Of a stretch of DNA of 64,000 nt, positions 47,422 to 64,000 are shown in pieces; within the stretch, counting starts at the first letter, position 1; each line of letters starts with the position of its first letter. This stretch comes from Comamonas sp. lk (GTDB taxonomy: Bacteria; Pseudomonadota; Gammaproteobacteria; Burkholderiales; Burkholderiaceae_C): the NCBI GenBank assembly GCA_945925985.1, contig CAMELV010000006.1:62001-126000 (forward strand), read 5' to 3'. Below the pieces are notes generated by a model, which was given only the letters and a program-made list of their open reading frames with translations, was not told where the DNA came from and did no database searches. The translations under genes and the position numbers were made by a program.

Positions 47422-48783
47422 CTAATAAGGCGGTAGAGAAACCGCCTCAGCCCCTTTGGGTTTGGCCCGACCAATGCCGGTGTAGTCAAACCCCAGCTCG
47501 GCCATCTGTTCCGGGTCGTACAGGTTGCGCCCGTCGATGATGACCGGCTGGCGCAGGCGCTGGCGCAGTTCGGCGTAGTCGGGGCTGCGGAACTCACGCC
47601 ACTCGGTGACCACAATCAGGGCGTCTGCGCCGTTAGTTGCCGCGAGCGGGTCTTTGCAGGCCACAAAGCCAGGCTGAGCTTGCCAACGAACGCTTGCACC
47701 GACCATTGCCGCGGGGTCAAAGGCTTGGACGCGGGCGCCGCGCTGCAGCAGCTCTTCAATCAGGTTCACACTCGGCGCTTCGCGCATGTCGTCAGTGCCC
47801 GGCTTGAAGGCCAGCCCCCACACCGCAAACTGCAGGCCACTCAGGTCTTCGCCAAAGCGTGCCACCACGCGCCGCCCCAACAGGCCGCGTTGCCGGTCGT
47901 TGATGGCTTGGGTGGCATGCAGCATGCTCAGCTCAGTGCCGGCCTCGGTGGCCATGTGCGCCAGGGCCCGCACGTCCTTAGGAAAACAGGAACCGCCCCA
48001 GCCACAGCCGGCATAGAGAAAATGGCTGCCGATGCGGGAGTCGCTGCCAATGCCAAGCCGCACTTGCTCGATATCAGCGCCTACCTTCTCCGACAACAGC
48101 GCCATCTCATTCATAAAGCTGATGCGTGTTGCCAGCATGGCATTAGCCACGTACTTGGTGAGCTCGGCGCTGCGCACGTCCATCATCATCAGGCGGTCGC
48201 GGTTGCGGAGAAACGGGGCATAGAGCGCACGCATCAACAATGCCGCCTGGTCGTCGTCGCAGCCCACGATCACCCGGTCCGGCCGCATGAAGTCGTCAAT
48301 CGCCACGCCTTCCTTGAGGAACTCCGGGTTGGACACCACGGCGTAGGGCAGCACCGCAGCGCGTTGGCGCAGGGCGGCTTCCATGGTGCTGCGGACCCGG
48401 TCGGCCGTGCCCACCGGCACCGTGCTCTTATTGACCACCAGCTTGTAGTCGGTCATGTGATCGCCGATGGTATGCGCCACTGCCAGCACATGTTGCAAGT
48501 CGGCAGAGCCATCCTCAGCAGCAGGCGTGCCCACGGCGATGAACACAATGGTCCCATGGTTCACGGCCACGGCCACATCGTTGGTAAAGGTCAGTCGGCC
48601 GGCCGCAGCATTGCGCTGCAATAGCGGCTCCAGGCCTTGCTCATGGATGGGGGAGATACCGCGCTGCAAATCAGCCACCCGCTTTGCATCGACGTCCACG
48701 CAGACCACGCTGTTGCCCATTTCTGCCAGGCAGGCCGCTGTCACCAGGCCGACGTAACCGGCGCCAAACACACTGACTTTCAT
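47422..48783 (-). CDS. ugd: UDP-glucose 6-dehydrogenase
   Basis: MKVSVFGAGYVGLVTAACLAEMGNSVVCVDVD, GSHFLYAGCGWGGSCFPKDVRAL, AFKPGTDDMREAPS. Confidence 0.96.
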   Translation of the reverse strand: MKVSVFGAGYVGLVTAACLAEMGNSVVCVDVDAKRVADLQRGISPIHEQGLEPLLQRNAAAGRLTFTNDVAVAVNHGTIVFIAVGTPAAEDGSADLQHVLAVAHTIGDHMTDYKLVVNKSTVPVGTADRVRSTMEAALRQRAAVLPYAVVSNPEFLKEGVAIDDFMRPDRVIVGCDDDQAALLMRALYAPFLRNRDRLMMMDVRSAELTKYVANAMLATRISFMNEMALLSEKVGADIEQVRLGIGSDSRIGSHFLYAGCGWGGSCFPKDVRALAHMATEAGTELSMLHATQAINDRQRGLLGRRVVARFGEDLSGLQFAVWGLAFKPGTDDMREAPSVNLIEELLQRGARVQAFDPAAMVGASVRWQAQPGFVACKDPLAATNGADALIVVTEWREFRSPDYAELRQRLRQPVIIDGRNLYDPEQMAELGFDYTGIGRAKPKGAEAVSLPPY

Positions 48784-48830
48784 GTACTTCTCCAGAGGGT
48801 TGTTCTGGAGCAAGATCGTCGCGAACCGAC

Positions 48831-48870
48831 GTGACCATGGCATGACGTTAGCGCGTCAAATCTGTGACAA
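48831..48870 (-). promoter_or_regulatory. Putative PHO-box-like array upstream of ugd
   Basis: Minus strand TTGTCAC-AGAT-TTGACGC-GCTA-ACGTCAT-GCCA-TGGTCAC, exact 11-bp period; ends about 48 bp before the ugd ATG. Confidence 0.45.
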
Positions 48871-48929
48871 GCGCAACCTTTTCAACTCAAACACCTCAAA
48901 AGTAAAACCATGATTGTGCGGTAGATCAC

Positions 48930-50078
48930 TCACCACCACCTCCCTGCCAAAACCAGGCCTTGGGCCTCAAAGCGGAGATTGCCGACCAGCGACTCTCCGG
49001 CAGCATCTTTGTAGAGGGTGGACCGATTGACCACTTTGAAAATACTGGCGTCAACACCAACGCCGGGCTTGAGGGTGCCCAGGGCGGGGCGGCGGATTGC
49101 CCGGGCTGCGTTGACCGTGGCGCAGGCGACCACGTCATTGAGCGACATGCCCAACACATGAAATTTTGCCAAGGTATGAAGCAGATCAATCGCTGGGCCA
49201 TTGGCAGACAGCAGGTGTACATCTGAAGAAATGACATCAGGTTGAATGCCCGCCTTGAGCATGGCGCGTGACGTTGCGAAGCTGCAGGACCCGCCCCCGT
49301 GACCAATGTCAAAAATGACGCCGCGGTTCAACGCATCCAGAACCTCTGCTCGGACGGCACCTTCGGGCGTGGTGGGCGCATTAGGTGGTGGTTTGAAGCA
49401 GTGCGTGAGGATGTCACCCTTGCGAAGGCGCGACAGCACTTCGACTCGGGTGGGTGGGATGTAGTCGATGTGCGCCATCACAGGTAAGCCCAAGGTCTCA
49501 GCGACCTCAATGGCGATATCCAGTGGCGCGAAGCCACGCGTGCCGCTGGAGCCACGGCCCACGCGAACCTTGATGCCAACCACCAGGTCGGCATGTTCGC
49601 GGGCCACGCTGATGCACGAATTCATGTCGAGCAGGCGCAGATCCTCGCACTCGCCCATGCGCACGGTGCGAGAGAAGGCGAAGATGCCAGGAAACGAGAT
49701 ATTCAGCAAGGGCAGGATGCGCAAGGGCGCAGAGGGCTCAATCACATGCTTACGAAAACCCAATAAATTCCCCGCGCCAGAGGTGCCTGCATCGACCAGG
49801 GTGGCTGTTGAGCTCTGGCGAGCCAAAGCAACCGGATCAACGCCGATTGAGGTACCGCCCCAGTACACATGCGTGTGCAAGTCGATAAGCCCCGGTGTAA
49901 CGATCATTCCCGTGACATCGCGTACATCGGCAGTAACCCCGGCGCGCAGATTTAGACCGATTTCAGCAACGACCCCATTCAAAAATCGCACATCGCAAAT
50001 CTGATCAAGTCCCTGTGAGGGATCGATTACCCGGCCTTGGCGCAACAGGACTTCGTGCGGTGCATTATGAAGAGACAC
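48930..50078 (-). CDS. Amidohydrolase/deacetylase-family metallohydrolase (dihydroorotase-like, COG3964 type)
   Basis: LLRQGRVIDPSQGLDQICDVRFLNGVVAEIG, TPGLIDLHTHVYWGGTSIGVDP, VGIKVR, MAHIDYIPP, FDIGHGGGSCSF. Confidence 0.85.
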   Translation of the reverse strand: MSLHNAPHEVLLRQGRVIDPSQGLDQICDVRFLNGVVAEIGLNLRAGVTADVRDVTGMIVTPGLIDLHTHVYWGGTSIGVDPVALARQSSTATLVDAGTSGAGNLLGFRKHVIEPSAPLRILPLLNISFPGIFAFSRTVRMGECEDLRLLDMNSCISVAREHADLVVGIKVRVGRGSSGTRGFAPLDIAIEVAETLGLPVMAHIDYIPPTRVEVLSRLRKGDILTHCFKPPPNAPTTPEGAVRAEVLDALNRGVIFDIGHGGGSCSFATSRAMLKAGIQPDVISSDVHLLSANGPAIDLLHTLAKFHVLGMSLNDVVACATVNAARAIRRPALGTLKPGVGVDASIFKVVNRSTLYKDAAGESLVGNLRFEAQGLVLAGRWW

Positions 50079-50094
50079 GGACAGTTACTTTCTT

Positions 50095-51057
50095 TCAGGC
50101 AACCCTGCGGCCCCAAGCAAACGCCTGTTGACCTTTGGCGGGCGAGGGTCGGGGTGCGATCACAATAGCTTCATCAAAGGGCGCCAGAACCGGTTTTTGA
50201 CCGTCCATGGCAGCGCATGCCCCCAATGGGTACGCGTCAAAGCCCGCATAGCTGCCCACAATTTCTAGGTGATCGCTTTCAGCGATGACGGGCTGCACAA
50301 TCTCAAAACGTTCTATGGCTGAGTCGGCAGGGACAACCGCGGCGGCAAGCAAGTTGACTGCAACGGCCGTTTCGATCATGCCGCAAACCTGCAGCATGCG
50401 AACCGCTGTCTGCCAGGCGTTGTCCACGCTAGAGCGTGCAAAGTGTTGACCGCACTCGACAATCAGGGCTACCGCGCCCGCGTCGTCCTGGCCAAAGGCG
50501 TTGTAATCAATGAGGTGATAACCCTCGTGCCGGATCCCCGGCAAAAACAGCTGGCGTCTTGGATGTCCCAGTGCGTCGGCGAGAGCCCGTGTCTTGGCAA
50601 GTTTGGGTAAAACGAAAAAGGGTTTGAGTGCGTGCCAGGTCGAGTGCAGGTCCAGCAGGCGGTCCACTGTGCGAACAATGGGGAGCATCTCATGGGCGCG
50701 GCGCGCCTCAATGGTCTGCGCATCCTCTTGTAGCAGGTCGTCGTGCCACAGTCGATTGAAGTCTCTGTCTAAAAACCGTGCGTCGAGCCGTTTTGGGCCG
50801 AAGCACTGGTAGGCGGACACATTGGCAAAGGACAGGGTTAATGCCCCGCAAACCGGACGAATATTGAGGTCCAACAACCGCTTGACGACACGCATGCCAC
50901 ACAATTCGTTGCCGTGCGTTAGCGCATTGATCATGACGTGCGGGCCAGCACGTGGGCTACGAAACGAGTGGACGTAGTCCACACCCGACGTGCCCCGCCG
51001 GTAGGGCGACAGGTCTTCCGGCTCGAGCTCTAGGGGATAGTCAGGTGCCTGACTCAT
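50095..51057 (-). CDS. Succinylglutamate desuccinylase/aspartoacylase family deacylase (M14-like)
   Basis: VMINALTHGNELCGMRVVKRLLD (HGxE), LDARFLDRDFNRLW, VDRLLDLHSTWH. Confidence 0.82.
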   Translation of the reverse strand: MSQAPDYPLELEPEDLSPYRRGTSGVDYVHSFRSPRAGPHVMINALTHGNELCGMRVVKRLLDLNIRPVCGALTLSFANVSAYQCFGPKRLDARFLDRDFNRLWHDDLLQEDAQTIEARRAHEMLPIVRTVDRLLDLHSTWHALKPFFVLPKLAKTRALADALGHPRRQLFLPGIRHEGYHLIDYNAFGQDDAGAVALIVECGQHFARSSVDNAWQTAVRMLQVCGMIETAVAVNLLAAAVVPADSAIERFEIVQPVIAESDHLEIVGSYAGFDAYPLGACAAMDGQKPVLAPFDEAIVIAPRPSPAKGQQAFAWGRRVA

Positions 51058-51066
51058 CAGGGCGAC

Positions 51067-51414
51067 TTAGGCCTTCAGCGACAAAGTGGCAACCACCTTG
51101 AATTCACAGGAATTAGGCACGGCTACCGCCAATCTAAGCCAGCCACCAAAGTTCAAGACTCTGCCGAAGCTGACCGTATCTGGCACCGTAGGCAGCTCGA
51201 ACTCTGTACCTTCGTTCACCCAATGCAGGCCATCCGGCGAAATCTGAACACGCGCCACAGCTGTCCCCAAGTGTGGCGTCGACTCGGGCATGAGGTGAAT
51301 GAAGAAAACAGCTTCGCTGGCCCAAGCGGCTTCATAGGGTTCGGTGTAGACCTGCCCGGTCCAGCGCTCGCCTCTGGCAATGACCGCAGTATAGGTGTTG
51401 CGTAAAGTGGTCAC
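51067..51414 (-). CDS. Hypothetical protein, small beta-rich, within sugar ABC operon
   Basis: GTG start at 51414 (VTTLRNTYTAVIARGERWTGQVYTEPYEAAWASEAVFFIHLM...); operon context. Confidence 0.5.
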   Translation of the reverse strand: MTTLRNTYTAVIARGERWTGQVYTEPYEAAWASEAVFFIHLMPESTPHLGTAVARVQISPDGLHWVNEGTEFELPTVPDTVSFGRVLNFGGWLRLAVAVPNSCEFKVVATLSLKA

Positions 51415-51415
51415 G

Positions 51416-52270
51416 TTAAAAATCTCCTGACAAAAGCACGCTGTCCAGATAAAAGAAAGTCCGTTTAGCGGTATCACTTTCGCAAAAAAAGGCCAAGTTC
51501 AGCATGCAATCTAGATTGGCCATAGCGGGCATTTTGATCGACTCCAAACCTGAGGGGTCCATAACAAGGTCATTGCACTGGAACCCGAGCCAACACATGT
51601 TGACCAAGTCGAAATCAAAGCGCAGGTAGTGCCAGTTGATCTTGGTGGGGATCTCGTTATAGCAAAGGTTTTGGTGCCCCCCGGGGACATCTTCCCAGTC
51701 TTCTGGACTCAGGTGATCGTGGGTGACGATCTCGCTGCCGCCAATCGCCCGAAAAGGTGTGGTGCGTTGCTTGAACTGCCATTGGTGTCGACGCTCGCCG
51801 TTCAGGGTGTTGAGGTAACGCAGATGGGGCATCACGCGTTGCTCTCGGTCTTGCAGGTCAAACAAGACACCGAACGCGCGGACGTCTTTGTCTGACAACT
51901 TCAACTCATTGGCCTCTGGCTTGCAAGCGAAATAAGTCTCGACCCGAATACGAGAGGCTTTTCGAAACGTCACTCGTTTGATGGCTGTGTTCCTCTCGCC
52001 AGCGACGGGGCGCGTGGCGATCTTTAAGGCATAGGTGCCATCGAATGAGCCGTGGGTGCCGCTGTCCCAGTGGGTGATCTGACTCAACATCGGCTGGGTG
52101 TGACGGGCATAGGATGTCGTCATGGTGTCGAGGGAATCCTGGTAGTTGCCGACAAGGCAGGTCCAGCCGTTCATGCCCTGATCGAAGTCGTCAAAGTAGA
52201 TGACCCGCTCCATCGGGTCAAAACGCGATAAACGCGGATCGCCATGAACAGGGTGACTATCAGAATGCAT
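51416..52270 (-). CDS. Conserved hypothetical protein, possibly DUF6772-like concanavalin/jelly-roll type
   Basis: VIYFDDFDQGMNGWTCLVGNYQDSLDTM...SHWDSGTHGSFDGTYALKIATRP...RVETYFACKPE; tentative family assignment from memory. Confidence 0.55.
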   Translation of the reverse strand: MHSDSHPVHGDPRLSRFDPMERVIYFDDFDQGMNGWTCLVGNYQDSLDTMTTSYARHTQPMLSQITHWDSGTHGSFDGTYALKIATRPVAGERNTAIKRVTFRKASRIRVETYFACKPEANELKLSDKDVRAFGVLFDLQDREQRVMPHLRYLNTLNGERRHQWQFKQRTTPFRAIGGSEIVTHDHLSPEDWEDVPGGHQNLCYNEIPTKINWHYLRFDFDLVNMCWLGFQCNDLVMDPSGLESIKMPAMANLDCMLNLAFFCESDTAKRTFFYLDSVLLSGDF

Positions 52271-52274
52271 GAGA

Positions 52275-53138
52275 TCATCCTTTCACTGAGCCAGCGGTCA
52301 GACCGGCAATTAGGTACTTCTGCACTATCCAAACGAAGGCCAAGATGGGCAGCAGCTGCAGGGTAGCGGCAGCAAACAAAATGCCCCAGTCCACCCCATC
52401 AATCGCTCCCACCATTTCGGAAATCACTAGTGGTGCTGTCTTTGCATCCACCGTGGTGAATATAAAGGCGAACAGGAAGTCATTCCAAGCGAAGACCATG
52501 ACGAATACGGCGGTGGAGATCAAGCCTGCATACGACAGCGGCAAGATGATTCGCCTCAGGGTTTGCCAAAGACCGGCGCCGTCCATTGACGCGGACTCTT
52601 CCAGCTCCCGTGGCAACTGATCAATAAATGCCTTCATGATCCATACGCCCAGGCTAACAAAAAATGAGCAGTACAAGACCACGAGCAGAAACTTGGTGTC
52701 ATTCAGGTGTAGCCAGTTAACAGCAGGAAACAAGGGCAAAGTGAGCACAATGGGCGGCAACAGGCGCACCATGATCATGAAGAACGCGCTTGCCGTTAAG
52801 GCTTTGCTGGAGCGACGCGAGTAAGCGTAGCCCGCCAGGAAAGAAACGACCAGAGTCAAGGCTGTCGCCAACAAGGCAACCCACAGACTGTTGGTCAGGT
52901 TGGTGAAAAAATCAGGCCAACGCTTCCATAGATTTTGGTAGTTTTGGAAAGTAAAGGAGAAGCCCCACAAAGAACCGTGAGAGAGAATATCGCGCGGTGC
53001 GCGCAATGACATTGAGACGATCAACGCGATCGGAAAGATCGACCACAGCAATACCGCAGCCAATGCCAGCATTCGAAGCATGCCGATGCCCCACTTCTTT
53101 AGCCGGCGCGGGTTCAGCAAAGGCTTAGGAGGCGTCAT
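52275..53138 (-). CDS. Carbohydrate ABC transporter permease (MalG/UgpE type, CUT1)
   Basis: PRELEESASMDGAGLWQTLRRIILPLSYAGLISTAVFVMVFAWNDFLFA (EAA motif). Confidence 0.92.
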   Translation of the reverse strand: MTPPKPLLNPRRLKKWGIGMLRMLALAAVLLWSIFPIALIVSMSLRAPRDILSHGSLWGFSFTFQNYQNLWKRWPDFFTNLTNSLWVALLATALTLVVSFLAGYAYSRRSSKALTASAFFMIMVRLLPPIVLTLPLFPAVNWLHLNDTKFLLVVLYCSFFVSLGVWIMKAFIDQLPRELEESASMDGAGLWQTLRRIILPLSYAGLISTAVFVMVFAWNDFLFAFIFTTVDAKTAPLVISEMVGAIDGVDWGILFAAATLQLLPILAFVWIVQKYLIAGLTAGSVKG

Positions 53139-53997
53139 GGCGAAACATCTTCTTGTACATGAGGTGGATGTACCAGGCGCCCATCAGCAATGAGGCCAGC
53201 AGCATCAGCCAGCCTGTGGCGGCGGCAGCGCCAAAGTCCGCGTAACGAAATGCATGACGGTACAAATAAACAGCCAGAACCTCGGTGGTTCGTGCCGGGC
53301 CACCACCCGTCAATAGCCACACCTCGGAGAAGATTCGGAAAGCAAAAATGTACCTAAAAACCAGGGCTACCAGCATCGCAGGTACCAACAAGGGGATTGT
53401 TATGCGAATGAATTGCTTCCAAGCGCTGGCGCCGTCGACTTGGGCCGCTTCATACAGATCACGCGGAATACCCAAAAGAGCGGTGTATAGCAGGATGAAC
53501 GTGAAGGGAAGGTGATGCCAAACCGACAGCACGATCACAAGGGCCAGACCATGGCTTGGCTCCACCGACCAATCCAGCGGTGGCAAGCCCAGGGTAGCCA
53601 ATGCGTTGGTGATGGGGCCACCATAGGGATCCATCATGAACTTCCAAATCACAACCGACACCACCTCGGTGATCGCATAGGGTGCAAGTACCATGGCGAT
53701 CATCCATTTGCGCCATGGAATCCAACCAGCGAATAGGACCGCCACGCCTAGGGCCAGAGCAAACTCCATGAACACGATGGTGTTCACCACGATGGCGGTG
53801 TTCCATAACGCTCGCCAGAAATAGGGGTCGCCCAGCACGGTGGCGTAATTGGCAAGCCCAGCCCACTCTGGTGACTTGCCATAGGTGGATCGCGTCAGGC
53901 TTAACCAGAAAACGTAGAGCGCCGGCACAAACAAAACCAGCACCAGCAGTGCCTGGGCAGGGCTGACCATGAGCCAATGGCGACGGTCCGGTTTCAT
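53125..53997 (-). CDS. Sugar ABC transporter permease (MalF/UgpA type, CUT1)
   Basis: IPRDLYEAAQVDGASAWKQFIRITIPLLVPAMLVALVFRYIFAFR. Confidence 0.92.
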   Translation of the reverse strand: MKPDRRHWLMVSPAQALLVLVLFVPALYVFWLSLTRSTYGKSPEWAGLANYATVLGDPYFWRALWNTAIVVNTIVFMEFALALGVAVLFAGWIPWRKWMIAMVLAPYAITEVVSVVIWKFMMDPYGGPITNALATLGLPPLDWSVEPSHGLALVIVLSVWHHLPFTFILLYTALLGIPRDLYEAAQVDGASAWKQFIRITIPLLVPAMLVALVFRYIFAFRIFSEVWLLTGGGPARTTEVLAVYLYRHAFRYADFGAAAATGWLMLLASLLMGAWYIHLMYKKMFRHDAS

Positions 53998-55133
53998 CGG
54001 TCTACACGGTAACGTTCAACCGCATCCCAGTTGATCTCCACCCCTAAGCCCGGCAGCTTGGGCACGGGCATTTGGCCGTTCACCAACTGTGATGGCGAAC
54101 CGGTCGGCGTTAGCGTCAATTCATCCCGCAGCGGGTTGTCAATGCACATGCATTCAAAGGTGACAAATGCCGGCATGGCGGCCGCCAGTTGCAGACTGGC
54201 CGCGACACAAATTGCACCCGACCAACCGACATGCGGGGCGTAACCCACATGAAAAGCATGCGCCAGCGTGGCAATGTCGCGTGTCTCACTGATGCCGCCC
54301 GATCGAGCGACATCAGGCTGGATCAAGCCGACGGCACGCTGCTCGATCAGTTCGCGCGCATGCGCGACCGTGAAATCACTTTCACCACCGGCCAGCATGA
54401 TGGGGAGTTTTTGACGCAACAGGCCATAACCGGCCACGTCTTCGGGGACGATGGGCTCCTCGAAGAACCAGTAATTCAGGCGATCCAGAGCCGCCCCAAC
54501 TTTCACCGCATCGTCCAGGCTGTAGGCCCAATTCGCGTCCACGCCCAGAACCATGTGCGGTCCCACGGCCTGACGAACCGCCGCGGCTGCTTCGATGGCG
54601 CGCCCGACGGGTTGCCCCAGCTTGACCTTGATGGTCTTGAAGCCCATGGCTGTGACGGCATGGGCCTGTTTGATCATGGCGTCTATCGGAGCCCAATTGA
54701 GTGAGGAGGCATAGCAGTCCACCACATCACGACCCATGCCACCCAGCAAGCGGTGAACAGGCTGGCCGGTGCCTTTGCCTACGACGTCCCACAAAGCTAT
54801 GTCGATGCCCGCCATGCATTCGAGCATCATGCCGCCTGCCCGACCCGACAATGAGGCACGCATTAGCTTCCAGAGCCGGCGAATGTCAAATGCTGACTGC
54901 CCAATGAGTTTGGGCGCCAGCACGTCCTGAATGAATCGGGCGTAAGCGGCGGGGCCAAAACGCCCCAGGCATTCTCCATAGCCGACCACACCATCGGCAG
55001 TCTCGACCTGGACCAAGACCATGGACACGGCCCCAAAATCGCCTTGCGACGTACGGGTGCCGTCTGGCATGCGAGCGGTCAGGGGGATGGCCGTGACGCG
55101 TTGAATAATTAAATTTTTCATGTCGTCAACCAA
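53994..55133 (-). CDS. Mandelate racemase/muconate lactonizing enzyme family protein, MR subgroup
   Basis: TIKVKLG (KxK), VLGVDANWAY, WFFEEP, AGGES, APHVGWSGAICVAASLQLA (catalytic His). Confidence 0.87.
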   Translation of the reverse strand: MVDDMKNLIIQRVTAIPLTARMPDGTRTSQGDFGAVSMVLVQVETADGVVGYGECLGRFGPAAYARFIQDVLAPKLIGQSAFDIRRLWKLMRASLSGRAGGMMLECMAGIDIALWDVVGKGTGQPVHRLLGGMGRDVVDCYASSLNWAPIDAMIKQAHAVTAMGFKTIKVKLGQPVGRAIEAAAAVRQAVGPHMVLGVDANWAYSLDDAVKVGAALDRLNYWFFEEPIVPEDVAGYGLLRQKLPIMLAGGESDFTVAHARELIEQRAVGLIQPDVARSGGISETRDIATLAHAFHVGYAPHVGWSGAICVAASLQLAAAMPAFVTFECMCIDNPLRDELTLTPTGSPSQLVNGQMPVPKLPGLGVEINWDAVERYRVDR

Positions 55134-56137
55134 GGTGCGATGAGCGAAGCGTTGGCAAATATTCCTGGCGTGCCGCCGGTATGTACAAACACGATGGGCT
55201 TGCCCGATGGCTCGCCAAGGTGGCGCTCACGGTGGAGCAGACCCGCTAACGCCTTGCCTGAGTACACCGGGTCAAGCAGCAAGCCCTCGGTGCGCCCCGC
55301 CAATTGCATAGCCTCTACGCCCGCTTGGGAGGGCACGCCATATTCCGGACCTCTGAAATCATCGATGAAATCAAAATCATCTGGCCTCAAAGTGGTCTGC
55401 AAGCCCAGCATTTCGGCCGCCTGACGAGCGCGCTCCACAATCAGCGGAACCATCTTTTCGCCAGTTTGCTGGACCGAAATGCCGACCACGCGAGTTGCGA
55501 GGCCCAAGGTCTTAAATGCCAATGTCAGACCAGCGACAGTGAGCCCTGAGCCGGCCGCGGTGTAAACAGCCCGGGGCGCAAGTCCCTGTTCCTTGAACTG
55601 CCCGGCCATTTCTTCACCCAAGTCCACCATGGCAGCTGCGCCCAATGCACCGGTTTTGCCTGGCATGTGCAGGGTCTCTGTCTTCAGCCCCTGCGATTCG
55701 AAGTCTTGGTGAAAAGCCTGAAGCCAGCCAGGAATCCTGGCGTCATAAGGGTCTTTGGTGTCAATGAAGCGAATGTCGGCCCCGAACAACGCGTCTAAGA
55801 GGTAGTTCCCTTGAAGCGGCTCGTCTGCCTGACCACGAAGCAGCAAGCCTAAACGGATACCTAATTGTGCACAAGCTGCCGCACAGGCCCGACAAAAATT
55901 AGATTGAGCCGCCGCCGTGGTGACGATGGCTTGCGCTCCACGCGCCAGCGCATCTCCAAGCAAAAACTCGAGCTGCCTCGGTTTATTTCCTCCCAGGGCG
56001 AGTCCACTGAGATCCTCTCTCTTGACCCAGAGCGCAGGGGAGCCAGCGGCCTGGCTCAGCCTGGCCTTGTGCTCCAGCGGTGTCGGCCCGTAGGCCAGCG
56101 CTATGCGTTGAAGCGAGGCCGTCAGACGACGCGTCAC
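55118..56137 (-). CDS. PLP-dependent D-cysteine desulfhydrase / ACC deaminase family protein
   Basis: GPTPLEHKARLSQAAGSPALWVKREDLSGLALGGNKPRQLEFLLGDALARGAQAIVTTAAAQSN. Confidence 0.9.
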   Translation of the reverse strand: MTRRLTASLQRIALAYGPTPLEHKARLSQAAGSPALWVKREDLSGLALGGNKPRQLEFLLGDALARGAQAIVTTAAAQSNFCRACAAACAQLGIRLGLLLRGQADEPLQGNYLLDALFGADIRFIDTKDPYDARIPGWLQAFHQDFESQGLKTETLHMPGKTGALGAAAMVDLGEEMAGQFKEQGLAPRAVYTAAGSGLTVAGLTLAFKTLGLATRVVGISVQQTGEKMVPLIVERARQAAEMLGLQTTLRPDDFDFIDDFRGPEYGVPSQAGVEAMQLAGRTEGLLLDPVYSGKALAGLLHRERHLGEPSGKPIVFVHTGGTPGIFANASLIAPWLTT

Positions 56138-56139
56138 GG

Positions 56140-57429
56140 TCAGGGCAACAAGGGCTTGACCCTACGTTCAGCATCTTGCATGGCGATTTGCACGGGTTTT
56201 CTTCCCAGGACTGCTGATTGCAACTCTTCTACAAAAATGTCCCCAGCTTTGGCGGCGTTGTCAAATGCCGGTAGTGGCACACGAGCGACTTTGAGCGTGG
56301 CTGCTTCAGCAGCAGCGTATGGCAGCGTTGAGGTGTAACGGGCATCGGAATAAGAACTGGACCGCACCGGTCCGTTGCCATTGAGACCCGCCCTGATGGT
56401 GTTCTCTTTGCTGGACAACTCCTTGATGAGGCTCCATGCGTAGGCTTTGTTGACCGCATTTTTGGGTATGCACATCGACCAGAACTCTGTTTTAGCAGGT
56501 GCTGACTCAGGGTATTTGCCTTGCAACTCCTTGGAGGCGGGTATGGCCATGACCTTGACATCGCCGGGGTGTTTTGCCTTGTCTTTGTCGTTATAGAACT
56601 GGGTGCGCCCGAACGACGTGATGGTCATGGCAGCTCGGCCAGACTGCATCCACGTATTGACCTCTTCACCCTTGATCGCGGTCCAATTGCGCGGGATCAC
56701 TCCTGCCGCATAGAAGTCGCGCATGGTCTGCACCGCGCGCAGCATCGGCGGCTGGTTGACGCCGAGCTTAAAGTCGCTGGTGATGAAGTCGCCGTCGTAG
56801 GCTCGCGCCATATCGATCATATTAGGGTAGTTGTCCCCCTCGATCAGGAAGCCAAACACCTGGGACCCATCGGGCCGGGTGAAAGTCAGCTTTTTTGCCG
56901 CTTCAATCACGTCCTCGAAGGTCTTCGGGATGGCTACCCCGCGCTCTTTGAAGATCGCCTCGTTGTAGTGGAAGCCCGTCGTGGCATGACGGTGCGGAAC
57001 GGCATAGTGCTTGCCACCAAACCGCATGGCATTGACCAAACCAGGGAAGAGGTCAGCAGGATCTTCCAATGGGCTCGATTGCATCCAACTGTCCAGCGGC
57101 TCGAACAAATTGGCGACGACCGGTGTGGCGCGCGTATTGACGATGAACGCAAGATCAATAGAGGTTGAACCCAGGCTCGCTTCACGGAACAAGCGCTCGT
57201 GCAGCGGTCCTGTATCTAAGGTCACCCACTCAACGGCGATACCGTTTTTCTTTGACCACTCGGCAGTCAGGTCGCCAGTCTTGCCTTGACTGATCACTGA
57301 CATGTGGACTCGGTGCGACAGTATGGTTAACTTTGCTGGCTTACTCTGCGCGCTTGCATCGATGCCGGTCAAGGTTATTGGCAGCAGCGCTCCAGATTTT
57401 AACAAGTGACGACGACTAAACATAACCAT
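56140..57429 (-). CDS. Extracellular solute-binding protein family 1, Tat-type signal
   Basis: MFSRRHLLKSGALLPITLTGIDASAQ (SRRxLLK), GKHYAVPHRHATTGFHYNEAIFKERGV, GRAAMTITSFG. Confidence 0.88.
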   Translation of the reverse strand: MVMFSRRHLLKSGALLPITLTGIDASAQSKPAKLTILSHRVHMSVISQGKTGDLTAEWSKKNGIAVEWVTLDTGPLHERLFREASLGSTSIDLAFIVNTRATPVVANLFEPLDSWMQSSPLEDPADLFPGLVNAMRFGGKHYAVPHRHATTGFHYNEAIFKERGVAIPKTFEDVIEAAKKLTFTRPDGSQVFGFLIEGDNYPNMIDMARAYDGDFITSDFKLGVNQPPMLRAVQTMRDFYAAGVIPRNWTAIKGEEVNTWMQSGRAAMTITSFGRTQFYNDKDKAKHPGDVKVMAIPASKELQGKYPESAPAKTEFWSMCIPKNAVNKAYAWSLIKELSSKENTIRAGLNGNGPVRSSSYSDARYTSTLPYAAAEAATLKVARVPLPAFDNAAKAGDIFVEELQSAVLGRKPVQIAMQDAERRVKPLLP

Positions 57430-57473
57430 CTCCAAAGGGGCGCTCGCCAGGCGAAGTACGACAAAGCGCATGT

Positions 57474-57649: not shown

Positions 57650-58720
57650 ATGGCTTCAGTGACCGTTGATAACGTGAAGAAGTCGTTTGATCGTCAAGCT
57701 GTCATCAAAGGGGTGTCTCTAAAGGTTGAAGAAGGTGAGTTCTGCGTCTTGGTAGGCCCCTCCGGCTGCGGCAAATCAACGCTGCTTCGCATGATCGCGG
57801 GGCTGGAAGAAGTGTCTGATGGCACGATTGCCATTGGTGACAAGGTCGTCAATGACACGCCATCCAAAGAGCGTGATATCGCCATGGTGTTTCAAAGCTA
57901 CGCGCTTTACCCCCACATGAATGTACGGGACAACATGTCCTTTTCGCTGCAGATGGCCAATATGGCAAAGCCGCAAATCCGGGCCAAGGTGGAAGCAGCA
58001 GCCAGCACTCTTGGGCTCGAGGACCTGTTGGACCGCTTCCCACGGCAATTGTCCGGCGGCCAGCGGCAGCGGGTCGCGATGGGTCGCTGCATGGTGCGAG
58101 ATCCGTCAGTATTCTTGTTCGACGAGCCACTGTCTAATCTGGACGCCAAATTGCGAGTAGCCATGCGAACCGAAATTCGCGGCTTGCACCAGCGTTTGGG
58201 GGCCACCTCAATTTATGTCACCCATGACCAAATCGAGGCCATGACAATGGCTGACAAAATTGTGGTGATGCGTGACGGCTTGGTGGAGCAAGTTGGATCG
58301 CCCCTGACTTTGTACGACTGCCCAGCGAACCAATTTGTCGCAGGCTTCATCGGCTCCCCCGCCATGAATTTTCTCTCGGGGCGAGTTTTAGACGGGCGCC
58401 TGGTACTTGCGGATGGACAGACCGTAATACGACCAGCCCATATTAATTGTCAGGAAGGCCAATCCGTCACCATTGGCATACGGCCCGAACATGTGTCTCT
58501 GTCCGCAGGGGATTGCAAAATGACCACGACCATAAAATCCATTGAGCCCACTGGCGCCGATACATTGGTTCATGCCGAGGTCGCTGGTGAGCCGATGACA
58601 GGCATGTTTCGTGAACGGGTTCAGTTGATGACTGGGCAGGCCCTTGAACTTTTCACAGAGGCCCGGGCCCTCCATGTTTTTGACGCCGGCACAGGCCAGA
58701 GCCTACGCAAGGCGACTTGA
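57650..58720 (+). CDS. ABC transporter ATP-binding protein, UgpC/MsmK type
   Basis: GPSGCGKSTLLRMIAGLE, MVFQSYALYPHMNVRDNMSFSL, LSGGQRQRVAMGRCMVRDP, C-terminal TOBE-like region. Confidence 0.94.
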   Translation: MASVTVDNVKKSFDRQAVIKGVSLKVEEGEFCVLVGPSGCGKSTLLRMIAGLEEVSDGTIAIGDKVVNDTPSKERDIAMVFQSYALYPHMNVRDNMSFSLQMANMAKPQIRAKVEAAASTLGLEDLLDRFPRQLSGGQRQRVAMGRCMVRDPSVFLFDEPLSNLDAKLRVAMRTEIRGLHQRLGATSIYVTHDQIEAMTMADKIVVMRDGLVEQVGSPLTLYDCPANQFVAGFIGSPAMNFLSGRVLDGRLVLADGQTVIRPAHINCQEGQSVTIGIRPEHVSLSAGDCKMTTTIKSIEPTGADTLVHAEVAGEPMTGMFRERVQLMTGQALELFTEARALHVFDAGTGQSLRKAT

Positions 58721-59587
58721 CACACCAATCACACGCAACAAAGCCTGCCCCATCCGGACCTGCCGACCCGTCTCGATACCTTCACACAGCTCAAAACCAG
58801 GCGGGGTAAACACGATGATGGTGGAGCCATGCTCAAACCAGCCGAGCTCCTCGCCCTTGACACAGCGGGCAGTGCAGGGCATCTCGTTGGCGCCGCGGTA
58901 GCGCAGGTGCAGCAGCACATCAAGGAAGTGCAGTCGGATGCTGGCGACCAAAATAGCAGCCACCGGCACCAGTGCGATGGGCTGGCCGCCCTCGGTCAGG
59001 CGGGCGCGAAGCACGGCCCGCTCGTTGCGGCAGAACAGACGCTCAACCCGCGCCAGAGCGATCGGGTTTACATTCCAGGTATCGCCGCTGAGGTAGGTCA
59101 CATGCTCAACCGTCATGTTCTGCGGCGCATGAAACCGGTGGTACATGCTTGATGTCAGACGCAGGGTGATGTAGCTGCCATTCATAAATACGCTGGGATC
59201 CTGGCTGGGGCCAAACAGCTCGCCGATCGAGTACGGAAAGCCCTTGGCCTGCAGCACCATGCCATCCACCACGCGACCGCAAGCCCCCACGATGCCGTCG
59301 CTGGGGCTGCACAGCACCGCCGGGTCTGTGTCAATGACACGCGCGCCTGGCCGCAGCTCACGGGTGAAGCAGTCATGCAGGCTGTCAAAGTGCTGTTGTC
59401 GGGCATCGCTTAAGTCAACGTCTGTGAACAGTCGCCAAACGCGAATGGACAGCCGCGCTAGAAGTGGGCTGCGCAGGTGGCTGAACCAGCCCATCCAGCG
59501 TGTCAGTAGCAGCCGGGGCACCCGGTTGGTGAGCAGGAAATTCAGATCTTCCTGGAGGAAAAAGCGTCGCAGTAGATTGGTTTTCAT
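58703..59587 (-). CDS. Phosphatidylserine decarboxylase homologue
   Basis: CSPSDGIVGACGRV, MYHRFHAPQNMTVEHVTYLSGDTWNVNPIAL, GWFEHGSTIIVF (GST processing site); start MKTNLLRRFF at 59587 (alternative 59620). Confidence 0.9.
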   Translation of the reverse strand: MKTNLLRRFFLQEDLNFLLTNRVPRLLLTRWMGWFSHLRSPLLARLSIRVWRLFTDVDLSDARQQHFDSLHDCFTRELRPGARVIDTDPAVLCSPSDGIVGACGRVVDGMVLQAKGFPYSIGELFGPSQDPSVFMNGSYITLRLTSSMYHRFHAPQNMTVEHVTYLSGDTWNVNPIALARVERLFCRNERAVLRARLTEGGQPIALVPVAAILVASIRLHFLDVLLHLRYRGANEMPCTARCVKGEELGWFEHGSTIIVFTPPGFELCEGIETGRQVRMGQALLRVIGVSSRLA

Positions 59588-59620
59588 ATGGCTGTCAAAT
59601 AAGTTGGATAAGTTTGTCAT
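59581..59620 (+). promoter_or_regulatory. Putative PHO box array in the psd/aminotransferase divergent region
   Basis: TTTTCAT-ATGG-CTGTCAA-ATAA-GTTGGAT-AAGT-TTGTCAT, exact 11-bp period; first unit overlaps the psd start codon. Confidence 0.6.
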
Positions 59621-59640
59621 ATTTCTAACTGGAGCAATTG

Positions 59641-61287
59641 ATGGACAACAGCATGGCCCTTCCCTTATTGGCCCTGGGCGTCCTGGCATGGGCCCTACCC
59701 AAAGCCAAACGCCGGCTTGAGCTCTCGCGGGCCAAGCACCGTTCGCTGGCAGGTCATTCGCGCATCGCCAAACGCATCGCTGGGCTGCTGCCCGGCTATG
59801 CCTATGACGAAGCCACCTTCTTCAACTCTGACCATGCCGACGGCCCGGTGGTGCAGCGGCGGCGTGATGGCTTTACCCGCTTGGCAGCCTTGTATGACAC
59901 CCGTTATGCCAAGAGTGCCGCGATGACGGCCAGCGCCCGAGCCATCATCTCGGACATGCAGTTCACCGGGCGCTACCGCGTGCCCTACCAATTCACCGAC
60001 TACCTGGGCCGTCATATCAAAAGCGGTAGTTTTCTGCAGTCGTCGCAAGGGGTCACAGTGACCGACCTTGACGGTAATGTGTTTTACGACCTGACGGGCT
60101 CTTACGGCGTGAACCTGCTTGGCTATGACTTTTACAAGCAAAGCATCGAGGCCGGCCAGCGGACGGTGCAAGCGTTGGGTCCGGTGCTTGGGGCCTATCA
60201 CCCCTGTGTGCTCGACAACGTGACCCGGCTCAAACGAATCTCTGGGCTGGACGAGGTGTCGTTTCACATGTCGGGCACCGAGGCCGTGATGCAGGCCGTG
60301 CGCTTGGCCCGCTACCACACCGGGCGCAGTCATTTGGTGCGGTTTTGCGGCGCGTACCACGGCTGGTGGGAAGACGTACAACCCGGCCCCGGCAACCCCC
60401 TGCCGCCGCGGGAAACGCATACCTTGAAGGACATGGATGAACGCAGCCTCCACGTGCTGCGAACCCGCAAGGACATCGCCTGTGTGTTGATCAACCCTTT
60501 GCAGGCCCTGCACCCCAATGCGCCAGCGCCGGGCGACTCGTCCCTGGTGGACAGCAGCCGCAAGGTGGGCTACGACCGAGCCGCCTACACCGCATGGTTG
60601 CATCGCCTGCGCGAAGTTTGTACGCAGCGTGGCATTGTGCTGATCTTCGACGAGGTGTTTCTTGGGTTCAGGCTGGCACCGGGCGGTGCGCAGGCCTATT
60701 TTGGCGTGCAGGCAGACATGGTGACCTATGGCAAGACACTGGGCGGTGGCCTGCCGGTGGGTGTGGTTTGTGGCCGGGCCGCCCTGATGAAGCGCTACCG
60801 TGAGCGCCGGCCGGCCGACATCTGCTTTGCCCGAGGCACCTTCAATGCGCACCCCTATGTGATGGGCGCCATGCAGGCCTTCCTGGATGCCATCGAGACG
60901 CCGGAGATCCTCGCGCTCTACGACGGTCTCGACGAGCGCTGGGATGGCCGTGCCCGCCAACTGAACGACCGGCTTGAGCAGAATGGCTTGCCGGTGCGAG
61001 TGGCGAACATGTCGACGGTCTGGACAGTGTTGTATACCAAACCCTCCCGGTACAACTGGATGCTTCAGTTTTATCTGCGGGCACATGGCCTGGCCTTGAG
61101 CTGGGTGGGCAGTGCTCGACTGATCTTCAGCCTGAACTACACCGACCATGACTTCGAGGCCGTGGTTCAAGCCTTTGTCGGGGCCGCCCAGGCCATGCAG
61201 GATGATGGTTGGTGGGACGGCCCAGCGCAAAGCAACCAGGCCATCCGCAAAGGCATCTTCAGGGAGATGCTGCGCCAACCGCGCTGA
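59641..61287 (+). CDS. Class III PLP aminotransferase (glutamate-1-semialdehyde aminomutase-like) with N-terminal hydrophobic segment
   Basis: DLDGNVFYDLTGSYGVNLLGYDFYK, HMSGTEAVMQAVRLARYHTGR, CGAYHGWWEDV, LIFDEVFLGFR, TYGKTLGGGLPVGVVCGR (PLP Lys). Confidence 0.88.
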   Translation: MDNSMALPLLALGVLAWALPKAKRRLELSRAKHRSLAGHSRIAKRIAGLLPGYAYDEATFFNSDHADGPVVQRRRDGFTRLAALYDTRYAKSAAMTASARAIISDMQFTGRYRVPYQFTDYLGRHIKSGSFLQSSQGVTVTDLDGNVFYDLTGSYGVNLLGYDFYKQSIEAGQRTVQALGPVLGAYHPCVLDNVTRLKRISGLDEVSFHMSGTEAVMQAVRLARYHTGRSHLVRFCGAYHGWWEDVQPGPGNPLPPRETHTLKDMDERSLHVLRTRKDIACVLINPLQALHPNAPAPGDSSLVDSSRKVGYDRAAYTAWLHRLREVCTQRGIVLIFDEVFLGFRLAPGGAQAYFGVQADMVTYGKTLGGGLPVGVVCGRAALMKRYRERRPADICFARGTFNAHPYVMGAMQAFLDAIETPEILALYDGLDERWDGRARQLNDRLEQNGLPVRVANMSTVWTVLYTKPSRYNWMLQFYLRAHGLALSWVGSARLIFSLNYTDHDFEAVVQAFVGAAQAMQDDGWWDGPAQSNQAIRKGIFREMLRQPR

Positions 61288-61337
61288 GCGACGACCGATC
61301 AGCGCAACAGTCACCGATGACGCGCATGCGTCATCGG
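61281..61337. terminator. Hairpins between convergent genes
   Basis: GCGCTGA-N11-TCAGCGC (61281-61305) and CCGATGACGC-GCAT-GCGTCATCGG (61314-61337); no T-tract. Confidence 0.45.
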
Positions 61338-61919
61338 GTCGATCAACTCACCACGCAACAGAGCCAAAGGCGCCTTGTAGTACAGCATGATGTCATGGAA
61401 CGGATCGGTGATGATCTTGCTGGCCCAAACCAAGCCGGTCCACATGTCTTGCTGAATCCAGAGCTGGCCGACACGGAAAAGCAGTCCCGCCACGCCCAGG
61501 GCAAGCCAGGATATGCCTACATCGTGCAAAAACTCAAGCCAGTTTCCGGCAGCCGCAATTTGCCCAAAAAGCGTCGGCTCCAACCACAGCACCACCGGCG
61601 CGGCAGCCCAGACGCCCAAAAGAACAATTTTGCGCCGAATGTTGTAGCCGATCTTGATCGCTTCTTTGTGCTCATCGGTCGCCTGGTTGACTTCGTCGTA
61701 GCCCCGTGGCTCAAAGAAAAAGTGACCGGCTTGACGGCTGGTCATGGAAACTGACCATGCCAGCAATGCCGCCCAGGCTGGCTCAATAAACAACAAGCCG
61801 TAGGAGATCACAAAGAAGATCGCGCTCAGCAGGTGCAAACTCTGGTTGATGCGGCTGTGGTGGTAGTAACGATGGTCATCCCAACGTTGCGTCTTGAGCT
61901 CTTGCAAATAACGGTTCAT
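61311..61919 (-). CDS. Mpo1/DUF962-like membrane protein (tentative)
   Basis: DHRYYHHSRINQSLHLLSAIFFVISYGLLF and RQAGHFFFEPRGYDEVNQATDEHKEAIKIGYN: YHH...H and GHxxFE patterns resembling Mpo1-like proteins. Confidence 0.5.
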   Translation of the reverse strand: MNRYLQELKTQRWDDHRYYHHSRINQSLHLLSAIFFVISYGLLFIEPAWAALLAWSVSMTSRQAGHFFFEPRGYDEVNQATDEHKEAIKIGYNIRRKIVLLGVWAAAPVVLWLEPTLFGQIAAAGNWLEFLHDVGISWLALGVAGLLFRVGQLWIQQDMWTGLVWASKIITDPFHDIMLYYKAPLALLRGELIDPMTHARHR

Positions 61920-61989
61920 ATCGACCTCGAAAATAACGGGCTTGAAGCCCAGGGTAATGAGATAAGCGGTCTGACTCTAGCGAGCCAAT

Positions 61990-62050
61990 ATGAAAATGGC
62001 GTGACATAAGAGTTTCATATCCGAGAACAGCCTTGTCATCATTTTGTTAT
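61990..62050. promoter_or_regulatory. Putative PHO boxes in the divergent Mpo1-like / GT4 region
   Basis: Plus strand GTGACAT-AAGA-GTTTCAT (62001-62018) and TTGTCAT-CATT-TTGTTAT (62033-62050); minus strand ATGTCAC-GCCA-TTTTCAT (62007-61990). Confidence 0.6.
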
Positions 62051-62072
62051 CAAAAGCTGCAAAGATTGAAAA

Positions 62073-63317
62073 ATGGACACTGACACTAGCCACGAGTTCG
62101 AGGTTGATAATTTTCCTGCAAAGCAGCGGTCGTTGCGAGTTGCCGTGGTGTCGGAAACATATCCCCCTGAGGTGAATGGCGTGGCCTTGACGCTGGCCCG
62201 TCTGGTTGAGGGCCTGCGCGGCAACAACCATGACGTGCAACTGATCAGGCCGCGTCAAGGTGGAGCCGACCAGGGGACCCAAGAGGCCCTGATACCGGGG
62301 TTTCATGAGGTATTGATGCGGGGACTGCCGATCCCCCGCTACCCCGAGCTTAGGATGGGATTGCCCTCCAAGGCCGCTCTGGTTAAATTATGGCAACTCC
62401 GCCGCCCTGATGTGGTTCACATCGCGACGGAGGGCCCTCTTGGCTGGTCTGCGCTGCGGGCGGCTCTGTACCTAAAGCTACCCATCTCCACCGACTACCG
62501 GACTAATTTTCAGAGCTACAGTACTCACTACGGCGTTGGCTTTCTGAATAAGCCCATCATGGGGTACCTGCGAAAGTTCCATAATCGGGCCCACTGCACC
62601 ATGGTTCCCACCAAAGCATTGCAGACTGCGTTGGCTGCGGCAGGCTTCCACAAGCTCAAGGTGGTGAGCCGGGGCGTTGACACCAGTGCGTTTGACCCCG
62701 CGCACCGCCAACCGGCGCTTCGGACCCAGTGGGGACTTAGCGACGATGACTTGGCGGTTCTGTGTGTCGGTCGACTTGCCCCGGAAAAAAACCTGAAGTT
62801 GCTGGTCCAGGCCTATCAGGAGATCAAGCAACGGGTACCGCACGCCCGATTGGTGCTGGTGGGGCACGGCCCAATGCGCCAGGCGCTGCAGGAGCAGTGT
62901 CCCGACGCCATCTTTACTGGACAGCTGCGAGGTAGCGTGCTGGCTGAACACTACGCCAGCGCCGATCTGTTCCTGATGCCCAGTATGACCGAGACCTTCG
63001 GTAACGTTACCACCGAAGCCATGGCCAGTGGTTTGCCAGTGGTTGCCTTCAATGACGCTGCTGCCGCAGAATGGTTGGTCGATCAGGTCAACGGCAGCGT
63101 GGTGGCGCTGGCTGATTCCAAAGGGTTCGTGTCAGCCGCCTTGGCGTTAGCGGAGCAGCCCGCCCTCAGGGCCCAGTTGGGGCAGGCGGCCCGCCAAACG
63201 GCCTTGCTGTTGGACTGGTCCCGGATCGTGCAACAATTTGAAGATGTGCTTCAAACAGTGATGCACCAAGCCAGCATCAACGGGGCTGGTGCGGCAGGTT
63301 CTGATCGACCTCAGTAG
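62073..63317 (+). CDS. GT4 family glycosyltransferase (Agt/MgtA-like lipid glycosyltransferase candidate)
   Basis: VAVVSETYPPEVNGVALTLARLVEGL, STDYRTNFQSYSTHYG, VGRLAPEKNLKLLVQAYQ, PSMTETFGNVTTEAMASGLPVVAF. Confidence 0.9.
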   Translation: MDTDTSHEFEVDNFPAKQRSLRVAVVSETYPPEVNGVALTLARLVEGLRGNNHDVQLIRPRQGGADQGTQEALIPGFHEVLMRGLPIPRYPELRMGLPSKAALVKLWQLRRPDVVHIATEGPLGWSALRAALYLKLPISTDYRTNFQSYSTHYGVGFLNKPIMGYLRKFHNRAHCTMVPTKALQTALAAAGFHKLKVVSRGVDTSAFDPAHRQPALRTQWGLSDDDLAVLCVGRLAPEKNLKLLVQAYQEIKQRVPHARLVLVGHGPMRQALQEQCPDAIFTGQLRGSVLAEHYASADLFLMPSMTETFGNVTTEAMASGLPVVAFNDAAAAEWLVDQVNGSVVALADSKGFVSAALALAEQPALRAQLGQAARQTALLLDWSRIVQQFEDVLQTVMHQASINGAGAAGSDRPQ

Positions 63318-64000
63318 CTGACCGTAACGCCGCCCTGGTAAGCACCGCCATAGCCACAGCGATGCACCCGCCAAACAGGGTCATCAGAGGAACGATCGGC
63401 ACCTCGGCGGCGACCAGGGCCGCATACAGCCCCAGCATGCACAACACGCTCAAGTTTTCATTGAAACCTTGAACGGCCACAGACCGCCCGGCACTCAAGA
63501 GGGTGTAGCCGCGGTGCTGGAGCAGGGCATTGAGGGGAACCACCAGGAACCCACCCACCATCCCGACAAAGGCCAGTAGGGCTATCGCAACCCAGAGTAC
63601 CGAAACTTGGGCTACCACCGGCATCATCAGACCCAACAACACGCCGGCCGGTAAGACGCGTCTGGCTTGGTCCAACTCCACCCAGCGGCCTGCTGCCGCC
63701 GCCCCGAGGACCACCCCTACAGCGACCGCCGCTTGCAAGTAAGCGGATTGGTCCAGTGGCAGGAGCAGCACATCGCCTGCCCACTTCAACACAACAAATT
63801 GAAGCGTCGCGCCCAGACCCCAAAAAATGGTGGTGACCGCCAGGGACAGGCCACCCTCCCGGTCGCGCCAAAGCGTGCGGTTAGCCCGAATGAAATCATT
63901 AATCAGAACCGAAGGGTCAAGCGACGCAGCTGGGTAACGCGCGCCGCTGTGCGGTATCCCGATATTGAGTAACCCTGCCAAGGTGTAGACCAGCAACAAC
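63277..64000 (-). CDS. lplT: LplT-like lysophospholipid transporter (MFS), C-terminal part; gene continues past the right edge
   Basis: LQHRGYTLLSAGRSVAVQGFNENLSVLCMLGLYA, VLLGLMMPVV; MFS topology. Confidence 0.75.
   Translation of the reverse strand, partial: LLLVYTLAGLLNIGIPHSGARYPAASLDPSVLINDFIRANRTLWRDREGGLSLAVTTIFWGLGATLQFVVLKWAGDVLLLPLDQSAYLQAAVAVGVVLGAAAAGRWVELDQARRVLPAGVLLGLMMPVVAQVSVLWVAIALLAFVGMVGGFLVVPLNALLQHRGYTLLSAGRSVAVQGFNENLSVLCMLGLYAALVAAEVPIVPLMTLFGGCIAVAMAVLTRAALRSATEVDQNLPHQPR

Follow-up and report, generated by a model that had tools for sequence, protein, structure and literature searches.

The 64,000-nucleotide stretch of Comamonas sp. lk analyzed here (the window) covers positions 62001 to 126000 of contig C6, in a genome of 4.29 Mb that is 94.8% complete, and ends in a group of genes with putative roles in membrane lipid metabolism. 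The closest named relative loci were found in Rhodoferax, Polaromonas, and other Comamonadaceae (order Burkholderiales). The initial annotation of this region had described five adjacent open reading frames (ORFs) as a lipid-remodeling cassette, and all five are present, with small corrections of their coordinates. At the core of the group lies a triad encoding a paralog of phosphatidylserine decarboxylase (PSD), named PsdL, a class-III aminotransferase (AT), and an Mpo1/DUF962-like protein. The genes of the cassette, followed by two more distant genes of the window, are the following:

58703 to 59587, reverse strand: psdL, PSD paralog of 294 amino acids (aa)
59641 to 61287, forward strand: AT gene, class-III pyridoxal phosphate (PLP)-dependent aminotransferase of 548 aa
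61311 to 61919, reverse strand: mpo1-like, Mpo1/DUF962-like predicted integral membrane protein of 202 aa
62073 to 63317, forward strand: family 4 glycosyltransferase (GT4; PF13692, 112 bits; also PF00534 and PF13439)
63277 to 64000, reverse strand: 3' part of the lplT-like gene for a major facilitator superfamily transporter, the remainder lying beyond the end of the window (full protein of 421 aa)
38184 to 39047, forward strand: plcP candidate, metallophosphoesterase (PF00149)
47422 to 48783, reverse strand: ugd, UDP-glucose 6-dehydrogenase, which makes UDP-glucuronic acid (UDP-GlcA; PF03721/PF00984/PF03720; TIGR03026, 436 bits)

The ORF listed for psdL spans 58703 to 59689, but conservation places the start at the ATG of 59587. 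The gene overlaps by 18 bp the end of a ugpC/malK-type gene for the ATPase of an ATP-binding cassette (ABC) transporter (57650 to 58720).

The cassette genes are grouped far beyond chance. AT (called at E ≤ 1e-60) was found in 22 of 199 genomes of the window's order, and in all 21 of the other carriers (22/22 including the window) it was flanked by PsdL and the Mpo1-like gene with the orientation kept. Of 399 genomes sampled across the phylum, 26 encoded AT, and the triad was again together, across Alpha- and Gammaproteobacteria. With one genome scanned per species, at least 575 loci were found to encode AT. We counted neighbors in the best 80 of them, taking as denominators the loci that were long enough: PsdL was in place in 70/72, the Mpo1-like gene in 71/74, and GT4 in 61/64, while LplT lay within about 6 kb in 25/47, PlcP in 14/47, and Ugd in 13/47. 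Most exceptions were rearrangements with the genes still together. Mpo1, AT, and PsdL all point in one direction in two loci (L062 and L116), and six others (L168 to L173) likewise form one operon direction. The carrier genera include Rhodoferax, Polaromonas, Limnohabitans, Polynucleobacter, Roseateles, Paucibacter, Curvibacter, Dechloromonas, and Variovorax, as well as the alphaproteobacterial Roseomonas and Pseudoroseomonas. Moreover, the pairwise sequence distances of AT, PsdL, and Mpo1 were correlated (r of 0.59 to 0.75, 0/500 permutations). The co-occurrence that had been proposed as a check of the cassette is thus strongly supported. The grouping is real, but its members are not five equals: the PsdL/AT/Mpo1-like triad is nearly invariant, GT4 is nearly constant, and LplT, PlcP, and Ugd are optional.

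Other genes were seen near some cassettes, and genes of the phn, ppk, and phoR types recur there. Genes for PhoR, PPK1, PPK2, and Ppx, named by eye from their sequences, adjoin cassettes in other genomes. One locus (L127) carries a YkgJ-like gene between AT and the Mpo1-like gene; in the genome of the window, a member of this family separates LplT from phnC. In five loci (L037, L106, L109, L110, and L113), hosted by three Polynucleobacter, one Burkholderiaceae metagenome-assembled genome, and genome G076, a conserved ORF of ~200 aa with a signal-peptide-like start and, by eye, a START/SRPBCC-like character precedes PsdL. A divergent DUF3419/BtaA-like ORF, followed by TenA-like and GNAT-like ORFs, lies near the cassette of genome G069 (L033, 12324 to 13424, forward strand).

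The promoters of the cassette carry sites resembling Pho boxes, as do the regions upstream of plcP and ugd:

59581 to 59620: Pho-box-like repeats of the divergent psdL-AT promoter, namely CTGTCAA at 59592 and TTGTCAT at 59614, 22 bp apart
61990 to 62007, reverse strand: Pho-box-like site facing mpo1 (12.9 bits)
62033 to 62050, forward strand: Pho-box-like site facing GT4, TTGTCAT CATT TTGTTAT (22.9 bits, reached by 0/500 shuffles)
38101 to 38140, forward strand: three Pho-box-like repeats with 11-bp spacing upstream of plcP (14.9, 13.7, and 11.4 bits, the best reached by 4/500 shuffles)
48831 to 48848, reverse strand: weak Pho-box-like site upstream of ugd, whose likely start is 48783 (10.9 bits)

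A site matrix trained on other species, the close relatives of the window being excluded, was used to scan the window and the adjoining sequence (72+ kb). It ranked the site at 62033, in the mpo1-GT4 promoter, first, and found further sites at phn genes (65082, 65242, and 70010), at psdL-AT (59581), and at plcP (38101 to 38123). Across loci, a Pho-box score of at least 11 at 14 informative positions was reached by 62% of the mpo1-GT4 regions and 24% of the psdL-AT regions, against about 1% of shuffled sequences and 0% of the convergent AT/mpo1 regions used as control. The psdL-AT score is inflated because the psdL start codon lies partly within one half-site, and we therefore recounted the half-sites with start codons removed. 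TGTCA/TGACA occurred 93 times at psdL-AT in 97 loci (11 expected) and 138 times at mpo1-GT4 (21 expected), a 6- to 8-fold enrichment, whereas the convergent control was at background level (20 versus 16). The spacing of half-site pairs peaked at 22 bp, twice the 11-bp period of PhoB repeats. The PHO-like boxes that the initial annotation had placed in the two divergent promoters are thus statistically borne out, and those it had seen at PlcP and Ugd correspond to the three plcP repeats and to the weaker ugd site. These sites suggest that the cassette is probably switched on at phosphate shortage.

PsdL belongs to the PSD family by its profile matches (PF02666, 185 bits for a cutoff of 22; TIGR00163, 155 bits for an equivalog cutoff of 111.75) and retains D97, H150, H153, and the HGST cleavage motif. 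The equivalents of the catalytic D90, H144, and H147 were found in 113 to 114 of 114 PsdL sequences, with the GST self-cleavage motif intact. What changes is the phosphate site. In the structure of the Escherichia coli PSD, the phosphate is contacted by Tyr137, Ser166, and the amide of Val167, and replacing both side chains together (Y137F/S166A) strongly impairs the enzyme (PMC7952604). In the PsdL of the window, the positions of Y137 and S166 are occupied by R143 and N172, and the Arg-Asn pair (Y137R, S166N) was present in 114/114 PsdL sequences, versus Tyr and Ser in 8/8 canonical PSDs of the same genomes, a comparison set made of eight long-type PSDs only. PsdL is always an additional copy, since a further PSD was present in all 26 AT-carrying genomes tested; that of the window's genome, of canonical type, lies on contig C7. 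PsdL might still be an ordinary second PSD for stress, with AT and the Mpo1-like protein under the same regulator for unrelated lipid chores such as fatty acid or amine turnover. Its equivalog-level match, its canonical catalytic motifs, and the existence of other PSDs with Arg137 (PMC7952604) are in line with this explanation. Nevertheless, we consider it unlikely: a canonical PSD already exists in every genome examined, both phosphate-contact side chains are changed in every PsdL, the three genes stay together throughout two proteobacterial classes, and additional phosphatidylethanolamine (PE) under phosphate starvation makes little sense while PlcP degrades phospholipids.

AT matched the class-III aminotransferases (PF00202, 115.6 bits) and has a catalytic-type lysine (K365 in GKTLGGG). 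The predicted model shows an N-terminal hydrophobic helix at residues 6 to 31, where the model confidence is low, and an extension of ~125 residues. A hydrophobic stretch at the N terminus was found in 106 of 121 AT sequences, and by prediction the enzyme is membrane anchored. The nearest solved structure by sequence profile was the aminotransferase domain of MycA (6kfm, 222 bits), ahead of glutamate-1-semialdehyde aminomutase (GSAM, 158 bits), and 6kfm was also the best Foldseek match of the model (TMt of 0.82). The assignment of AT as HemL, i.e., GSAM itself, was rejected (TIGR00713, 164 bits for a cutoff of 527). AT shares with the MycA domain, which belongs to mycosubtilin synthase, and with GSAM/HemL the fold and the PLP-lysine motif; unlike them, it is a stand-alone protein with a predicted N-terminal membrane anchor and the extension.

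These matches bear on the possibility that the triad modifies the sugar of a glycolipid made by GT4, AT aminating an oxidized sugar to give an aminoglycolipid while PsdL and the Mpo1-like protein supply or trim that sugar. Class-III transaminases acting on sugar aldehydes exist, and C-6' aminotransferases and NeoN were among the Protein Data Bank (PDB) matches of AT. The near constancy of GT4, fused to or in an operon with the triad in several lineages, and the closeness of Ugd to many cassettes also fit such a product. However, AT is nearest to a beta-amino-acyl aminotransferase rather than to the sugar enzymes, GT4 is not adjacent in some cassettes, and PsdL, which needs an alpha-amino acid, would have no obvious job. 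We regard an aminoglycolipid as rather improbable.

The Mpo1-like protein of the window matched PF06127 weakly (21.5 bits for a Pfam cutoff of 24), and this family was the best match on the same stretch in six independent members (18 to 25 bits, one reaching 24.7). Residues H16, H20, H29, H66, and E70 showed at least 95% conservation in 116 sequences and form a putative metal-site set of histidines and glutamate.

In 16 loci, outside the window's class or in a further proteobacterium, mpo1 is directly preceded, on its own strand, by a gene for a PmtA-like N-methyltransferase. The hosts include Roseomonas, Pseudoroseomonas, the groups f78, f85, and f88, and Sphingomonas parapaucimobilis (plasmid NZ_CP155753.1), and in Sphingomonas the two genes overlap. 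The protein matched NF045882 over its full length with 133.7 bits (cutoff of 390), so it is related to this family but is a different equivalog. No close homolog was found in the betaproteobacterial cassettes, and 15 of 17 genomes checked in the window's order lacked one altogether. Betaproteobacteria commonly make PE, and many alphaproteobacteria make PE and phosphatidylcholine (PC). The cassette therefore seems to reflect the zwitterionic phospholipids native to its hosts.

GT4 is related to lipid glycosyltransferases (NF053787, 142 bits; NF049988, 112 bits; both under the equivalog cutoff) and is probably a diacylglycerol (DAG) glycosyltransferase. The full LplT-like protein reached 491 bits with the LplT family NF008397 (equivalog cutoff of 297). 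The PlcP candidate is also LpxH-like, below the cutoff, and its homologs adjoin the cassette in many relatives. PlcP was found in 20 of 22 genomes with AT and in 74 of 177 without it (P = 8e-6, uncorrected for relatedness and with genomes that are often drafts). Six genomes (group f79 and G546) showed the order AT, a PHP-like~GT4 fusion, PsdL, and Mpo1, followed in two of them by a UDP-sugar dehydrogenase. The fusion protein of these loci (L168 to L173, in G376, G318, G412, G292, G211, and G546) has ~900 aa, joins a PHP-like metallohydrolase to GT4, and is encoded within the cassette operon. Its PHP assignment relies on motifs and on a weak match to the CehA/McbA PHP family in three of four sequences; the N terminus had no Pfam or PDB match. 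The PHP gene of the window (46499 to 47401) was considered as a relative of this domain and discarded, as the two have no similarity. PlcP was absent from all six fusion genomes but present in 11/11 relatives that carry the genes separately. The most straightforward explanation is a PHP-like domain that takes the place of PlcP. This would tie the triad to the DAG-glycolipid route, and the fusion is possibly a one-protein equivalent of PlcP and the glycosyltransferase Agt. The linkage of PlcP, Ugd, and GT4 suggested by the initial annotation holds in that neighborhood, co-occurrence, and boxes connect these genes with the Pho-linked cassette, but PlcP and Ugd are optional neighbors.

Directly beyond the end of the window lie a YkgJ-like gene and then the carbon-phosphorus lyase operon. 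The region (contig C6, 125500 to 145000) includes the YkgJ-like gene, phnCDE, phnN, a gene for a DUF1045-type phosphonate protein, a GntR-type regulator (PhnF-like), phnGHI, and a PhnJ-like ORF. The cassette is thus located within a phosphorus-acquisition island. This operon, the PmtA-like gene, the PHP-like~GT4 fusion, and the altered phosphate contacts of PsdL are additions to the initial annotation. On the other side, between ugd and ugpC (45485 to 57471), a catabolic operon encodes an amidohydrolase, an AspA/AstE-like protein, a DUF6772 protein, ABC permeases, and enolase-superfamily and PLP-dependent deaminase-like proteins. The adjoining ABC transporter, amidohydrolase, and phosphonate genes have scavenging functions, aminotransferases are reversible, and yeast Mpo1 is degradative, all of which would suit a cassette that salvages nitrogen or carbon from aminolipids or phosphoethanolamine lipids freed in remodeling, instead of a synthetic one. 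We nevertheless find this very unlikely, as GT4 accompanies the triad from genome to genome and the scavenging genes do not, AT is predicted to be membrane anchored, and a decarboxylase combined with an N-methyltransferase follows the building order from phosphatidylserine (PS) to PE to PC.

We favor, with a probability of roughly 60%, a Pho-linked membrane-lipid cassette that makes a phosphorus-free amine lipid as a substitute for PE or PC. Such a synthesis fits the enzymes combined in the cassette, all of them probably associated with the membrane and linked to Pho: a transaminase, a putative iron oxygenase, a PSD-type decarboxylase whose phosphate site is altered, and, in alphaproteobacteria, a lipid-type N-methyltransferase. 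From the gene order, conservation, co-occurrence, promoter boxes, and residue changes computed in this analysis, we infer induction at low phosphate and the following catalytic steps, order, and product. PlcP, or in some lineages the PHP-like domain fused to GT4, would strip phospho-headgroups to yield DAG, which Ugd and GT4 would convert to a glycolipid, probably glucuronosyl- or glucosyl-DAG. The triad would act on a membrane lipid, either DAG or this glycolipid: the Mpo1-like protein, as an iron-dependent oxygenase, would prepare an oxidized group, AT would add an amino group to the oxidized (keto or aldehyde) headgroup, and PsdL would turn the lipid-linked amino acid so formed into an amine by decarboxylation. 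In alphaproteobacteria, the PmtA-like enzyme could then methylate this amine. The final lipid, free of phosphorus, would replace PE in betaproteobacteria and PC in alphaproteobacteria.

Several observations weigh against a phosphorus-free amine lipid. In the E. coli PSD, S166A alone has no significant effect, and about 15% of PSDs have Arg at position 137 (PMC7952604). We found the same residue in two other PSDs of our comparison; hence, Arg alone does not exclude PS as the substrate. The Mpo1 homology barely reaches the Pfam cutoff or falls short of it, and a fold search with the AlphaFold model of this protein gave no significant match among solved structures. Two genomes with AT (G135 and G147) had no detectable PlcP and no fusion nearby. 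There is no obvious candidate for the gene that attaches the precursor of the amino acid head. Finally, ornithine-lipid-type genes were present in 17 of the 22 genomes with AT, a rate like that of genomes without it, so that the triad is no simple replacement for these lipids. Mutual exclusion with ornithine-lipid genes was accordingly dismissed (PF13444 missing in 5/22 genomes with AT and 36/177 without, P = 0.78, likewise uncorrected for relatedness).

A more specific and improbable form of the favored explanation is a bacterial route to a betaine lipid of the diacylglyceryl carboxyhydroxymethylcholine (DGCC) type, or to its unmethylated form. DGCC, known from algae, is a PC skeleton with a carboxylated acetal in the place of the phosphate. 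PlcP, Ugd, and GT4 would make GlcA- or pentosyl-DAG, and the Mpo1-like iron enzyme would open its ring oxidatively between C2 and C3, leaving DAG-O-CH(COO-)-O-CH2-CO-COOH. Amination by AT would give a serine ether, from which PsdL would produce DAG-O-CH(COO-)-O-CH2CH2-NH2, and methylation by the PmtA-like enzyme of alphaproteobacteria would lead to DGCC. The route would give each of these genes a role; it also requires an additional oxidation at C4 and, in the case of GlcA, removal of C6, steps assigned to none of them. A carboxylate at the position of the phosphate of PE would fit the change from Tyr to Arg in PsdL. In favor of the broader explanation, neither an OlsB/OlsF-type N-acyltransferase (PF13444) nor BtaA (PF11899) was found in the 94.8% complete genome of the window, and a combination of BtaA and PsdL yielding a decarboxylated diacylglyceryl homoserine was rejected for this genome, which has no BtaA.

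If the cassette makes a phosphorus-free analog of PE or PC, it would explain how some of the phosphate-starved proteobacteria in fresh water and soil can save phosphorus with neither ornithine lipids nor diacylglyceryl trimethylhomoserine (DGTS), and it would be a gene marker for such saving. Limnohabitans and Polynucleobacter, both carriers, are abundant freshwater bacteria (PMC7031163). The enzyme families of PSD and of phospholipid N-methyltransferases (PMT) may have been reused on a non-phosphate backbone, and the cassette would provide candidate enzymes for a lipid class without described biosynthesis, possibly DGCC, whose pathway is described as unknown (PMC10685587, PMC5835749).

We found no description of the triad in the literature searched, whose reach left out most subscription journals, and the PlcP literature found does not mention it. 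Lipid remodeling under phosphate starvation is itself known; the triad attached to it seems undescribed, and its product or chemistry may be new. Ornithine and glutamine aminolipids (OlsB/OlsA, OlsF, and GlnL) are likewise phosphorus-free amine lipids, and OlsB-like genes adjoin some cassettes, but their enzymes are different and the window's genome lacks PF13444. DGTS (BtaA/BtaB) and DGCC are phosphorus-free analogs of PE or PC under phosphate stress, as proposed for the cassette, which, unlike DGTS synthesis, occurs in the window's genome without BtaA. The pathway from PS to PE to PC (Psd and PmtA) has its homologous decarboxylase and, in alphaproteobacteria, its N-methyltransferase side by side in the cassette. 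The latter differs from it by its link to Pho, by consisting of extra paralogs with altered phosphate contacts, by AT and the Mpo1-like protein, and by having no Pss partner. The nearest known system is PlcP-Agt lipid remodeling, described in Phaeobacter, SAR11, Agrobacterium, and Pseudomonas (PMC4796936, PMC8528852). Both share a PlcP-type metallophosphoesterase, a glycosyltransferase, Ugd for UDP-GlcA, Pho-box control, and their occurrence in proteobacteria, and the window's genome indeed holds a PlcP-type candidate and a glycosyltransferase with Pho-box-like sites. To this system, the cassette adds the invariant AT/PsdL/Mpo1-like triad and, in some lineages, a PHP-like~GT4 fusion in genomes without PlcP.

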